This document shows, in pieces, positions 4,713 through 57,383 of a stretch of DNA of 64,000 nt (its first letter is position 1; the number at the start of each line of letters is the position of its first letter). The position numbers were made by a program, and so were the translations under genes. The DNA comes from an uncultured beta proteobacterium. GTDB taxonomy: Bacteria > Pseudomonadota > Gammaproteobacteria > Burkholderiales > Rhodocyclaceae. The stretch spans positions 1 through 64,000 of the forward strand of contig CAIVQO010000007.1 of NCBI GenBank assembly GCA_903908065.1, read 5' to 3'. The notes under the pieces were generated by a model. That model made no database searches, had not been told where the DNA came from, and worked only from the letters and a program-made list of their open reading frames with translations.

Positions 4713-5756
4713 ATGAGCCGCAAGAACCAGCCCGCCTGGACTCCGCCCGCGGAGCACGCGGCGCTGTTGCCGCCCTTCAGCGGCAACGCCTACAACGGCT
4801 GGGGCGAAGCCGCCCCACGCCGCCCGCGCCAGATCTTCTGGCTGCGCAAGTCCGAGGGCCATCCCTACGGCCGCCTGCTCGATGCCGTCAAGGCGCGCTT
4901 CGTCTCCGTGCCGGCCTACCGCGACGTCTATGCCAAGGCCGACCGCGGCCCCGGCAAGCTGCCCCCACCTGCCGAAAATCGCCGTACCGCCAGCGCCGAC
5001 TCCTGGACCCGGCAGGTCAGGGACTTCGCCCTCAACCTTCCCGGCGCACGTCCCGCGGGCTACCCCGGTGCCGGCAGCGAAGCCGAACTGGTCGGCATCG
5101 CCCGCATCCGTCCCGAGTGGGTGTATGAAGGCTTCGAAAGCAGCCTGCCCAACCTGATCGTCATCGGCAATGCGATGGACCATGGACGCCTGTCGCGCGT
5201 GCCCTCCAGCGCCGAGGACCCGGAAGGCCAGCTCGAAGTCTGCGACCAGTACAACCGCGGCTCCCGCGTGGTGAACTGGCTCGCGCACTGGATCCGCGCC
5301 CAGGGCTACGAGGCGAAGCCCCATGCCGGCCCCTGGGTCGGCTCGCTCAACCTGCTGCCCGCCGCCATCGCCTGCGGCTTCGGCGAACTCGGCAAGCATG
5401 GCTCGCTGATCAACCGCGAGTACGGCTCCAGCTTCCGCCTCGCCGCGGTCGAGACCGACCTGCCCTTGAACCCCGACACGGCCGACGAGTTCGGCGCCGA
5501 CGATTTCTGCGCCGGCTGCCAGGTCTGCGCCAACGAATGCCCGCCCGACGCCATCAGCCGCGACAAGGTGCTGGTGCGCGGCACCGTGAAGTGGGCGGTG
5601 GATTTCGACCGCTGTATCGCCTATTTCAACGAAACCTTCGGCTGCGGCATCTGCCTCGCCGTCTGCCCCTGGAGCACGCCGGGCCGCGCGCCGAAGCTGG
5701 CGCAGCGCTTCAGCCGCCGCGCCGCCGAAAAGCGCGCCGCCGGAGTCCCGGCATGA
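4713..5756 (+). CDS. Reductive-dehalogenase-like 4Fe-4S protein
   Basis: 347 residues. The C-terminal third has the double-cluster signature of reductive dehalogenases and epoxyqueuosine reductase relatives: FCAGCQVCANECPPDAI (Cys 266, 269, 272, 276), Cys 301, and CGICLAVCP (Cys 311, 314, 318), so eight cysteines for two 4Fe-4S clusters. The middle part (GELGKHGSLINREYGSSFRL) resembles the corrinoid-binding face of that superfamily, which makes a cobamide cofactor plausible but unproven. It has no Tat signal and no membrane anchor partner, so it is probably cytoplasmic and not a respiratory enzyme. It sits between a binding-protein gene and a fused ferredoxin oxidoreductase, which could supply its electrons (inference). 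Confidence 0.72.
   Translation: MSRKNQPAWTPPAEHAALLPPFSGNAYNGWGEAAPRRPRQIFWLRKSEGHPYGRLLDAVKARFVSVPAYRDVYAKADRGPGKLPPPAENRRTASADSWTRQVRDFALNLPGARPAGYPGAGSEAELVGIARIRPEWVYEGFESSLPNLIVIGNAMDHGRLSRVPSSAEDPEGQLEVCDQYNRGSRVVNWLAHWIRAQGYEAKPHAGPWVGSLNLLPAAIACGFGELGKHGSLINREYGSSFRLAAVETDLPLNPDTADEFGADDFCAGCQVCANECPPDAISRDKVLVRGTVKWAVDFDRCIAYFNETFGCGICLAVCPWSTPGRAPKLAQRFSRRAAEKRAAGVPA
4979..5004 (+). repeat. Dispersed 26-bp repeat, copy within reductive-dehalogenase-like gene
   Basis: TCGCCGT AC CGCCAGCGCCGACT then CCT in place of TTTC. It matches the copy at 18162 over its first 22 bases. Confidence 0.6.
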
Positions 5757-5914
5757 CCCCCTCGCACCGCATCTCGCTGCGCCTGTGCCACTGGTGGCGC
5801 ACCACCACCGACGGCGCCCGAACGCCCTCCCCCGCCACACGCTGAAGCGCGATCCCCGCGATCGCACGTGAGACGAAGACGCCCTCAGGGCGCCGCAGCA
5901 CGGAGGAGCAGCCC

Positions 5915-8900
5915 ATGAGCATCGCCAACGTCAGCCTCGAAGACAAGTACCGCGTCGAACGCGGCAAGGTCTTCCTCACCGGCATGCAGGCCCTGGCCCG
6001 CCTGCCCATGCTGCAGCACGAACTCGACCGCCGCGCCGGCCTGCACACCGCCGGCTACGTCTCCGGCTACCGCGGTTCGCCGCTGGGCGGGCTCGACTTC
6101 GCCCTGCACAGCGCCGCACCCTGGCTCAAGCAGCACGACATCAGCTTCCAGCCCGGGCTGAATGAGGACATCGCCGCCACAGCGGTGTGGGGCACGCAGC
6201 AGTTGCACCTGTTCCCGCAGCCCAAGTTCGACGGCATCTTTTCCATGTGGTACGGCAAGGGCCCGGGCGTGGATCGCAGCGGCGACGTCTTCCGCCATGC
6301 CAACCATGCCGGCACCGCCAAGCACGGCGGCGTGCTGCTGATCGCCGGCGACGACCCCTCGGCGCGCTCCTCGGCGGTGGCCCACCAGAGCGAGCACATC
6401 TTCTCCGCCTGCGGCATCCCGGTGCTGGCGCCTTCCAACCTGCAGGAGTACCTCGACTACGGCCTGCACGGCTGGGCCATGTCGCGCTACTCGGGCTGCT
6501 GGGTGGCGATGAAGCTGACCTCGGACACGGCGGAAAGCTCGGCCGTGGTAACAGTCGATCCCGAGCGCTACGAATTCCGCATCCCCACCGACTTCCAGCT
6601 GCCGCCGGACGGCGTGCACCTGCGCTGGCCCGACCCGCAGCTGGCGCAGGAACTGCGCCTGCAGCAGTACAAGGTCTATGCCGCGATCGCCTATGCCCGC
6701 GCCAACGGCCTCAACCGCCTGATCTACGACAGCCCGCGCCCGCGGCTGGGCATCATCGCCTGCGGCAAGGCCTACATGGACGTGCGCCAGGCGCTCGACG
6801 ACATGTGCATCGACGAGAAATACGCCGCCGAGATCGGCCTGCGCCTGTTCAAGGTCGGCATGCCCTGGCCGCTGGAGGCCGAGTCGGTGCGCCACTTCGC
6901 CGAAGGACTGGAAGAGATCCTGGTGGTCGAGGAAAAGCGCCAGATCATCGAATACCAGCTGAAGGAAATGCTCTACAACTGGCGCGAAGACGTGCGCCCG
7001 CGCGTGGTCGGCAAGTACGACGAAACCGGCGAATGGACACTGCCCGAGCACCGCTGGCTGCTGCCGCCCACCGCCGAGCTGACGCCGGCCATTGTCGCCC
7101 GCGCCATCGCCGCCCGCATTGGCCGCTTCCACCAGTCGGCCCGCATCAGCGACTACATCGCCTTCCTCGACGCCAAGGCGAATGCGCTGTCCAAGCCCAA
7201 GGTGACCCTGCTGCGCACGCCCTGGTTCTGCCCCGGCTGCCCGCACAACCAGTCGACCAAGGTGCCCGAAGGCAGCTGCGCGCTGGGCGGCGTCGGCTGC
7301 CACCTGATGGCGGTGATGATGGGGCGCAACACCCTCACCATCTCCCACATGGGCGGCGAAGGCGCGGCCTGGCTCGGCGTTTCCGGCCACAGCGGCACGC
7401 AGCACGTATTCGCCAACATGGGCGACGGCACCTACTTCCACAGCGGCCTGCTGGCCATCCGCGCCGCCGTCGCCGCCAGGGTGAACATCACCTACAAACT
7501 GCTGTTCAACGACGCCGTGGCCATGACCGGCGGCCAGCCGGTGGACGGCACGCTGACCGTGCCCCAGCTCACGCGCCAACTCGCCGCCGAAGACGTGGCG
7601 CGCATCATCGTCATGAGCGACGAACCGGAGAAGTACAAGGGCATCACCGACTTCGCTGCCGGCGTCGACATCCGCCACCGCGAACGCCTCGACGAAACCC
7701 AGCGTGAGCTACGCCAGACGCCCGGCGTCACGGCCCTGATCTACGACCAGACCTGCGCCGCCGAAAAGCGCCGCCGGCGCAAGCGCGGCGCCTTCCCCGA
7801 CCCCGAGCGGCGCGTCTTCATCCACCAGGAAGTCTGCGAAGGCTGCGGCGACTGCGCCGCCAAATCCAACTGCCTCGCCGTGGTGCCCGTCGATACGGAA
7901 TTCGGGCGCAAGCGGGCGATCGACCAGTACGCCTGCAACAAGGACGACTCCTGCCTCGACGGCTTCTGCCCGAGCATGGTCACCGTGCATGGCGGCCGCG
8001 TGCGGCGCGGCACAGCCATCGCCAGCGACGCAGCGGATGCCGCCGTATTGCCAGCGCCGACTTTTGCCGCACTGGCCGACCCCTACGGCATCCTGATCGC
8101 CGGGGTCGGCGGCACCGGCGTCGTTACCATCGGCGCCCTGCTCGGCATGGCCGCCCACCTCGAAGGCAAGGGCGTCACCGTGCTCGACATGACCGGCCTG
8201 GCGCAGAAGGGCGGCGCCGTGATGTCCCATGTCCGCATCGCCCGCAGCCAGGAACAGCTGCATTCGGCACGCATCGCCACCGGCGAGGCCCGCCTGCTGC
8301 TCGGCTGCGACATCGTGGTCGCCGTCAGCGAAGACGCGCTGTCGAAGACCGCGCCGGGCTATACCCAGGCCATCATCAACACCGGGCGCAGCATCACCGG
8401 CGAATTCCTGCGCAACCCGGATCGCGATTTCCCCGAGGGCGCAATGGAACAGGTGGTGGCTGACACCGTCGGCCGCGAAGCGACGCAGTTCATCGCCGCC
8501 TCGCAGCTGGCCACGCGGCTGATGGGCCACAGCATCGCCACCAACATCTTCATGCTTGGCCACGCTTTCCAGCGCGGCCTGGTGCCGCTGTCGGCGGAGG
8601 CCATCCGGCGCGCCATCGAGCTCAACGGCGCCGCCGTCGAGGACAACCTGCGCGCCTTCCACTGGGGCCGCCGCGCCGCCCACGACCCGGCCGCCATCGC
8701 CGCCCTGCTGGGCGACGAACCCAGGGCCGCCGACGCCGTCGCCACGACGCTGGACGAGATCGTCGCGCGCCGCCGCGCCCACCTCGTCGCCTTCCAGGAC
8801 GAGGCCTATGCGCAACGCTATGTCGCCCTGGTCGATCGCGTGCGGGGAGCGGAAGTCCTCGCCAAGACGCAGAGCGCGGGCGCGGGCGGCACCGCGCTGA

Positions 8901-57347: not shown

Positions 57348-57357
57348 GGTTGGATAT

Positions 57358-57383
57358 GAAAGTCGGCGCTGGTACTCCGGTGA
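57358..57383 (-). repeat. Dispersed 26-bp repeat, diverged intergenic copy
   Basis: Minus-strand reading TCACCGG AG TACCAGCGCCGACTTTC; the right half is perfect, the left half has about five changes. It lies in the livH leader, in the 133-bp gap behind the binding-protein gene. Confidence 0.45.

Follow-up and report, generated by a model that had tools for sequence, protein, structure and literature searches.

A 28-bp word that recurs through a 64,000-nucleotide stretch of an uncultured beta proteobacterium of the family Rhodocyclaceae (assembly GCA_903908065.1, contig CAIVQO010000007.1, positions 1 to 64,000; hereafter the window) is real, strongly maintained and specific to that family. Judging from its distribution and evolution in genome sequences, we put at roughly one half the probability that the word acts in the manner of a DNA uptake sequence, i.e., as a label of self-DNA. 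The motif is thereby a candidate third family of DNA uptake tags, neither the DNA uptake sequence (DUS) of Neisseriaceae nor the uptake signal sequence (USS) of Pasteurellaceae.

Form and distribution of the motif

The first-pass annotation of the window described a dispersed 26-bp pattern and proposed a genome-wide scan as a check. Throughout the 103 contigs (3,840,682 bases) of the same genome, 415 places match this 26-mer with at most three mismatches (227 forward and 188 reverse), with mismatch counts graded across the copies, whereas the reversed pattern gives 0 matches. Thus, the pattern is neither confined to the window nor as rare as a chance word, the two outcomes that had been named as telling against it.

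Using a weight matrix refined on a complete genome of the same genus (G002), sampled as 40 stretches of 20 kb spread along the chromosome (800 kb), we obtained the 28-bp motif RRTCGCCGTvYCGCCrGCGCCGACTyTy, which carries 33.6 bits and whose core, GCGCCGACT, is found 171 times in the sample. Relative to the 26-bp description, the motif starts two purine-leaning bases further 5′, its two supposedly free positions are biased (the first is rarely T, the second a pyrimidine), and the refined end, TYTY, covers most letters of the copies that had been set apart by the ending ACTCCT. A flank profile has sharp edges, with conservation running from 2 bases 5′ of TCGCC through 3 bases 3′ of GACT and nothing notable conserved outside them. 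By eye, the motif is non-palindromic and has no terminal inverted repeat, and three CGCC units lie in it at spacings of 8 and 6. Scores in G002 are strongly bimodal, and 160 sites in the 800 kb reach at least 12 bits, about one per 5 kb, compared with 0 in the reversed sequence and 2 in fourth-order Markov sequence.

Across a 61-genome sample, all 31 genomes of the same genus contain the motif (22 to 578 sites each), six other genera of the family have 0–2 sites per genome, and among 24 genomes of other families one has 4 sites and the rest have 0; the reversed control gives 1 match in two genomes. Among 399 genomes of the order, 31 show at least one match, and all those with a count above 5 belong to the motif's own family. 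A family-wide search of 249 genomes with a 23-letter core and at most two mismatches found matches in 107, with the control never exceeding one per genome. Six genera are motif-rich: g1 (327–630 sites in 8 of 9 genomes, and 29 in the ninth, G017), g32 (315–711 in 7 of 8, and 0 in G655), g36 (242–506 in 4 of 4), g166 and g192 (one genome each, with 726 and 709 sites), and g215 (296–398 in 7 of 7). Many other genera of the family have none or few, and four genomes are intermediate (G468 with 62 sites, G448 with 34, G477 with 16 and G607 with 14). The motif core ranks among the most over-represented 11-mers in G186 and G284. Lineage dialects are also present: G186, of genus g32, favours TGCCGTCY at the 5′ end of the motif, and G468, of genus g199, has GCGTCGACTTT in 16 of the 16 sites listed from its 62. 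Among the matches listed, contigs with the exact pattern are mostly metagenome-assembled genomes (MAGs) of Sulfuritalea, Rhodocyclaceae or Rhodocyclales, and a few seem misnamed. Exact copies stand on contigs titled Thermoflexus (L124), Burkholderiaceae (L089) and Propionivibrio (L052), which are probably mis-binned or misnamed MAGs.

The motif is scarce or absent in two lineages inside rich genera, G017 in g1 and G655 in g32. In 174 kb of G017, which belongs to the same genus as the window, six sites reach 12 bits and only two of them 24 bits, compared with 70 of 76 sites reaching 24 bits in 400 kb of G002 (Fisher p = 0.0016). Two sites reach 12 bits in reversed G017 sequence as well, so chance may account for some of the six. 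The sites that are left, few and weak, look as if they had eroded after loss of a maintaining force. No other dispersed word emerged in the motif-poor genomes G254 and G034, where the top over-represented 10-mers are as a rule confined to 2–4 of 11 or 10 stretches and therefore look clustered. G034 (L299–L308) does hold a different repeat, CTGTGGGAGC/GCTCCCACAG, whose 44 occurrences are locally clustered, in 3 of the 10 stretches.

Placement and turnover of sites

Coding sequence makes up 86.4% of the bases sampled in G002, and our codon-usage gene caller divides the 160 sites that reach 12 bits into 105 genic, 46 intergenic and 9 at gene edges. With the edge sites dropped, intergenic sites are enriched about twofold (46 of 151 against 13.6% non-coding sequence, p = 7e-8). 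Genic sites fall mainly into two tolerant reading frames, KVGAGxTA (48) and AVxPAPTF (27), which together hold 75 of the 105; a third, RRxASADF, has 14 and the other three share 16. Counts per 20 kb over the 40 stretches fit a Poisson distribution (p = 0.34), with no concentration at the origin or terminus of replication. Relative to replication, with origin and terminus placed by cumulative GC skew, sites of at least 14 bits are oriented 78:79 and have no leading-strand bias. Low-GC DNA is poor in sites: among 5-kb windows, the 20 whose GC lies below 0.60 contain 4 sites in all, compared with 87 in the 68 at GC of 0.64 or more. Two pairs of sites in the 800 kb abut in inverted orientation, both between convergent genes, and fold into stems of 23–25 pairs (−66.1 and −59.9 kcal/mol, z = −10.2 and −9.4); in the second, departures from the consensus match between the two arms. 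Neighbouring sites within 150 bp of each other form 10 pairs in the loci collected, of which 5 diverge, 2 converge and 3 are tandem.

Comparison with relatives, which had been suggested as a further check, reveals how sites change. We aligned same-genus loci all against all, at 72–96% identity and with both 40-bp flanks at least 65% identical, and traced sites scoring 20 bits or more. The 151 comparisons are non-independent and include many loci chosen for holding a site; a site of at least 14 bits survives in 102 of them, has gone without any gap in 22, and the other 27 have gaps of other kinds. None of the 151 has an insertion-like net gap of 20 nt or more at the site. Of these 27, 6 have 10–39 nt more in the other genome and 9 have 1–11 nt fewer, and in several the site is intact but was split at an edge in the alignment. 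When sites of at least 14 bits were excised from the subject sequences, 72 of 130 comparisons became insertion-like, so the test is able to detect insertions. The earlier doubt that the repeat is an insertion element is thus supported: insertion elements, miniature inverted-repeat transposable elements (MITEs) and repetitive extragenic palindromes (REPs) would leave an empty orthologous site, which is found in 0 of 151 comparisons. In the 114 ungapped pairs, kept or lost (averaged per site over 80 sites), the 19 conserved motif positions are 91% identical and the flanks 82% (p = 1e-7). Window site 25066, for example, is kept in G008 but scores only 7.5 bits in G014 and 14.2 bits in G018, in both without a gap. 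Orthologous sites are gained and lost by substitution.

At several orthologous loci (L047:158 against L176, L233:2895 against L234, and window position 8038 against L242) a longer stretch replaces the site. These stretches resemble another short intergenic repeat, e.g., GCCAGCGCGCTGCGTCC...GGGAACT or GCCGTTGCCTGCCCGCGAAGCGGAATC.

Within the window, the G002 matrix finds 14 sites of at least 14 bits, listed below, and no site of even 6 bits in the reversed window. All eleven copies of the first-pass annotation are among them, and three further sites with at most five mismatches had been passed over (3181, 22236 and 42124). Its mismatch counts mostly hold; the copy at 30845 has 6 rather than about 4–5, and that at 57358 has 4 rather than about 5. 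Four copies had been counted as intergenic; we place three sites between genes (18162, 27736 and 57358), one at a gene edge (53229) and the remaining ten in ten different genes, in several frames. Gene calls came from our own codon-usage caller, and Pfam matches, all to unrelated families, were obtained for 9 of the 10 proteins. In the same window, ARAGORN calls a 93-nt tRNA-Asp at 17257–17349 (+) that overlaps a predicted gene on the minus strand and is probably false or an overlap; Rfam, applied at gathering thresholds, gave no match in the window.

Table 1. Copies of the 28-bp motif in the window. Scores are from the G002 matrix; mismatches are counted against the 24 fixed letters of the 26-bp pattern.
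Position	Strand	Score (bits)	Mismatches	Context
3179..3206	+	22.3	4	CoA-transferase III gene
4977..5004	+	40.6	3	4Fe-4S domain gene
8038..8065	+	38.1	3	gene with POR and DUF6537 domains
18160..18187	+	40.6	0	intergenic
22236..22263	-	22.5	5	SelO gene
25066..25093	-	32.6	5	NnrS gene, reads VGAGNTA
27734..27761	+	39.4	2	intergenic
30843..30870	+	28.3	6	TetR-family gene
38724..38751	-	29.5	2	MobA-like NTP-transferase gene
42122..42149	+	23.0	5	Oxidored_FMN gene
43830..43857	+	22.8	5	small gene without Pfam match
45760..45787	+	32.7	1	AMP-binding enzyme gene, reads KVGAVATA
53229..53256	-	28.9	2	3′ edge of gene
57358..57385	-	21.9	4	intergenic

A possible uptake label and its alternatives

Four features match the signature of uptake sequences as a class: (i) One word is over-represented genome-wide on both strands (415 matches in the source genome against 0 for the reversed pattern, 160 sites in 800 kb of G002). 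(ii) It changes by point mutation, with 0 of 151 insertion-like gaps and 22 ungapped losses. (iii) It has no replication-strand polarity (78:79). (iv) It has lineage dialects, in g32 and g199. The constraint on motif positions, the tolerant reading frames, the intergenic excess, the scarcity in low-GC DNA and the seeming erosion in G017 also speak for this reading. If the word does label self-DNA for uptake, the machinery that imports DNA would have a sequence-specific receptor with a preference for it, most plausibly a minor pilin of a type IV pilus, and DNA bearing the word would be imported and recombined more often. As a result of this bias, near-matches arising by chance would be driven towards the consensus and then held there.

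Several genes associated with natural transformation are widespread in the genomes tested. Two overlapping sets of genomes have ComEC throughout (31 of 31 and 23 of 23); PilQ is present in 24 of 24, DprA in 31 of 31 (30 over the cut-off) and GspH/FimT (PF12019) in 30 of 31, missing in the motif-rich G284. ComEA, the periplasmic DNA receptor, exceeds its curated cut-off in 4 of 24 genomes.

Several observations weigh against uptake: (i) The most serious is that ComEA is over the cut-off in 1 of 13 motif-rich genomes (G563) as opposed to 3 of 7 motif-poor ones. No ComEA match was found in G002 and G448, and the rest have only weaker ones, in open reading frames (ORFs) of 782–1237 aa, although a divergent ComEA may have been missed. 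(ii) None of ComEC, DprA, PilQ and GspH/FimT separates motif-rich from motif-poor genomes; G005, the one genome with DprA below the cut-off, has the most sites in the genus, and ComEC and PilQ are still present in G017 and G655, where sites are few or absent. (iii) Unlike in Pasteurellaceae, genic sites of G002 have no significant orientation preference (60:43, p = 0.11) and, given counts of 24, 22, 20, 14 and 23 per gene quintile, no clear bias towards gene ends. (iv) Abutting inverted pairs are rare, 2 among 157 sites, where the DUS paper reports many. (v) Viral contigs, described below, carry the motif, and an uptake drive accounts easily only for temperate phages. (vi) The motif is 26–28 bp long, compared with the 9–12 nt of known uptake sequences in the available text of PMC12616744. 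(vii) A literature search found no uptake experiment.

The uptake-sequence role proposed by the first-pass annotation thus fits most of the genomic signatures tested and is called into question mainly by ComEA. Literature searches also returned no paper containing the letters of the motif, and none on DNA uptake sequences together with Rhodocyclales, on Sulfuritalea together with natural transformation, or on the uptake signal sequence together with phage HP1. Among the matches listed, those on natural competence, comEA or uptake sequences did not mention Rhodocyclaceae, no further uptake-sequence family appeared in titles or the starts of abstracts, and those on uptake-sequence dialects, Betaproteobacteria and prophages were Neisseria, Haemophilus or unrelated papers.

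A 22-letter core matches at least 120 stretches in IMG/VR, and the reversed pattern none. Among the matches listed these form 53 sequence clusters with GC contents of 0.50–0.69; 3 of the 53 representatives also match host-side DNA, so part of the set may come from hosts or prophages. In 7 viral stretches, nine proteins match PHROG families (primase, terminase, Erf, virion, head, tail and ParB-like). A wider search with 129 proteins, drawn from 44 of the 53 representatives, matched 203 families among the matches listed, the best 25 of which include repressors, DNA methyltransferases, and head and tail proteins; Pfam adds Mu-like and sheath proteins. The repressors and Mu-like genes point to a temperate lifestyle for at least some of these viruses. 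A longest-ORF caller places 82 of the 96 sites of the representatives, among the matches listed, inside ORFs. In deposited phages and plasmids, the best matches to one 30-nt query are no better than expected by chance (E values 0.6 and 0.1).

Viral contig L335 (881–2214) carries the motif in one orientation, with four copies at an exact 316-bp period and a fifth 385 bp on. By eye, the motif lies directly 5′ of a purine-rich stretch resembling a ribosome-binding site at L317:6887–8506, L316:9480, L322:12 and L339:2632; these sites have a GTTnG-like 5′ extension, and two copies in L317 are 836 bp apart, in the manner of a cassette array.

On the cellular side, matches in several motif-poor relatives are clustered on short stretches. 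Four such clusters (L441–L444) resemble, by eye, acquired host-type islands rather than prophages, with genes for copper/silver efflux, nitrate assimilation, a modification-restriction pair and cardiolipin-synthase-like proteins; other clusters may include prophages.

Instead of a pilus, an intracellular self/non-self system might read the word as a whole-genome label, a possibility that we consider unlikely but worth attention. The word, long and non-polar, would then halt or divert a nuclease, a helicase-nuclease or a defence system, so that host DNA and adapted phages that bear it are spared or repaired; phage DNA would thereby pass as self, and the label would resemble Chi in purpose, not in form. 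The density of about one site per 5 kb, the viral stretches in 53 clusters with a control of 0, the scarcity of the word in low-GC DNA and the general failure to find ComEA in motif-rich genomes are all consistent with such a label. Against it, stretches of low GC that have few sites or none are retained in the chromosome, orientation bias is absent whereas Chi is a polar octamer, and no candidate protein was found. If this reading is true, no other dispersed self-label known to us is as long, and the label extends over several genera, with dialects.

A chromosome-wide binding site for an abundant nucleoid or chromosome-organising protein is less probable still. Such a site would account for the even, Poisson-fitting distribution and for the constraint on motif positions, but 33.6 bits is far more than is needed for about 760 sites (extrapolated) in 3.8 Mb, there is no origin, terminus or strand pattern, the word is present on viral contigs, and one lineage of the genus has few, weak sites. 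A transcription terminator or other element acting in RNA is very improbable: it would explain the intergenic enrichment and the two hairpin-forming inverted pairs between convergent genes, but most sites are single, genic and in either orientation, and the motif is, by eye, non-palindromic. Copies of a small mobile element (a MITE, a REP or a recombinase site), to which high copy number and sharp edges might point, can practically be dismissed given 0 of 151 insertion-like gaps beside 22 ungapped decays (72 of 130 in the excision control), graded mismatches and no terminal inverted repeat by eye.

Comparison with known systems

Chi is an octamer with strand polarity and is carried by some phages, and KOPS, matS and parS are polar or regional sites. 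The motif shares with Chi a similar density and its presence in phages, and with KOPS, matS and parS the dispersed or repeated arrangement. However, it is 28 bp long and its orientation is unrelated to replication (78:79), which speaks against Chi, KOPS and similar polar sites, and its sites are not confined to the origin or terminus (Poisson p = 0.34 over 40 stretches), which speaks against parS and matS. The Chi-like and segregation-type roles also floated in the first-pass annotation are therefore not sustained.

The uptake reading places the motif beside two systems, since the available text of PMC7811141 and PMC12616744 describes sequence-biased uptake only in species of Pasteurellaceae and Neisseriaceae. 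The 28-bp length and a sequence different from both the DUS ATGCCGTCTGAA and the USS AAAGTGCGGT rule out DUS or USS proper; the TGCCGTC(T) that the g32 dialect has in common with DUS may be a coincidence. Like the USS, in those parts of PMC7811141 that were available, the motif is extended beyond a core and evolves by point mutation. Unlike the USS, of which H. influenzae Rd has 2,206 (PMC7811141), it is longer, unrelated in sequence, present at about one per 5 kb and without a clear bias towards gene ends. DUS, as far as the available text of PMC3630211 describes them, occur in lineage dialects, in high numbers of inverted pairs and as 'peregrine' copies in a foreign dialect; DUS and their complement also occur in genes (PMC2346458, likewise from the available text). 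The motif is similar to the Neisseriaceae DUS in its many genic and intergenic copies, its inverted pairs capable of forming stem-loops and its dialects, and the clustered copies in motif-poor relatives resemble the peregrine ones (PMC3630211). It differs in the length of the word (26–28 bp as opposed to 10–12), in the rarity of inverted pairs and in the family that carries it. If the uptake reading is true, this would be a third independent case, in which the causes of uptake sequences (drive, selection or receptor bias) could be compared across independent origins; an environmental case in Rhodocyclales would bring to the comparison dialects and a word of much greater length, together with viral carriers and lineages from which the word has disappeared.

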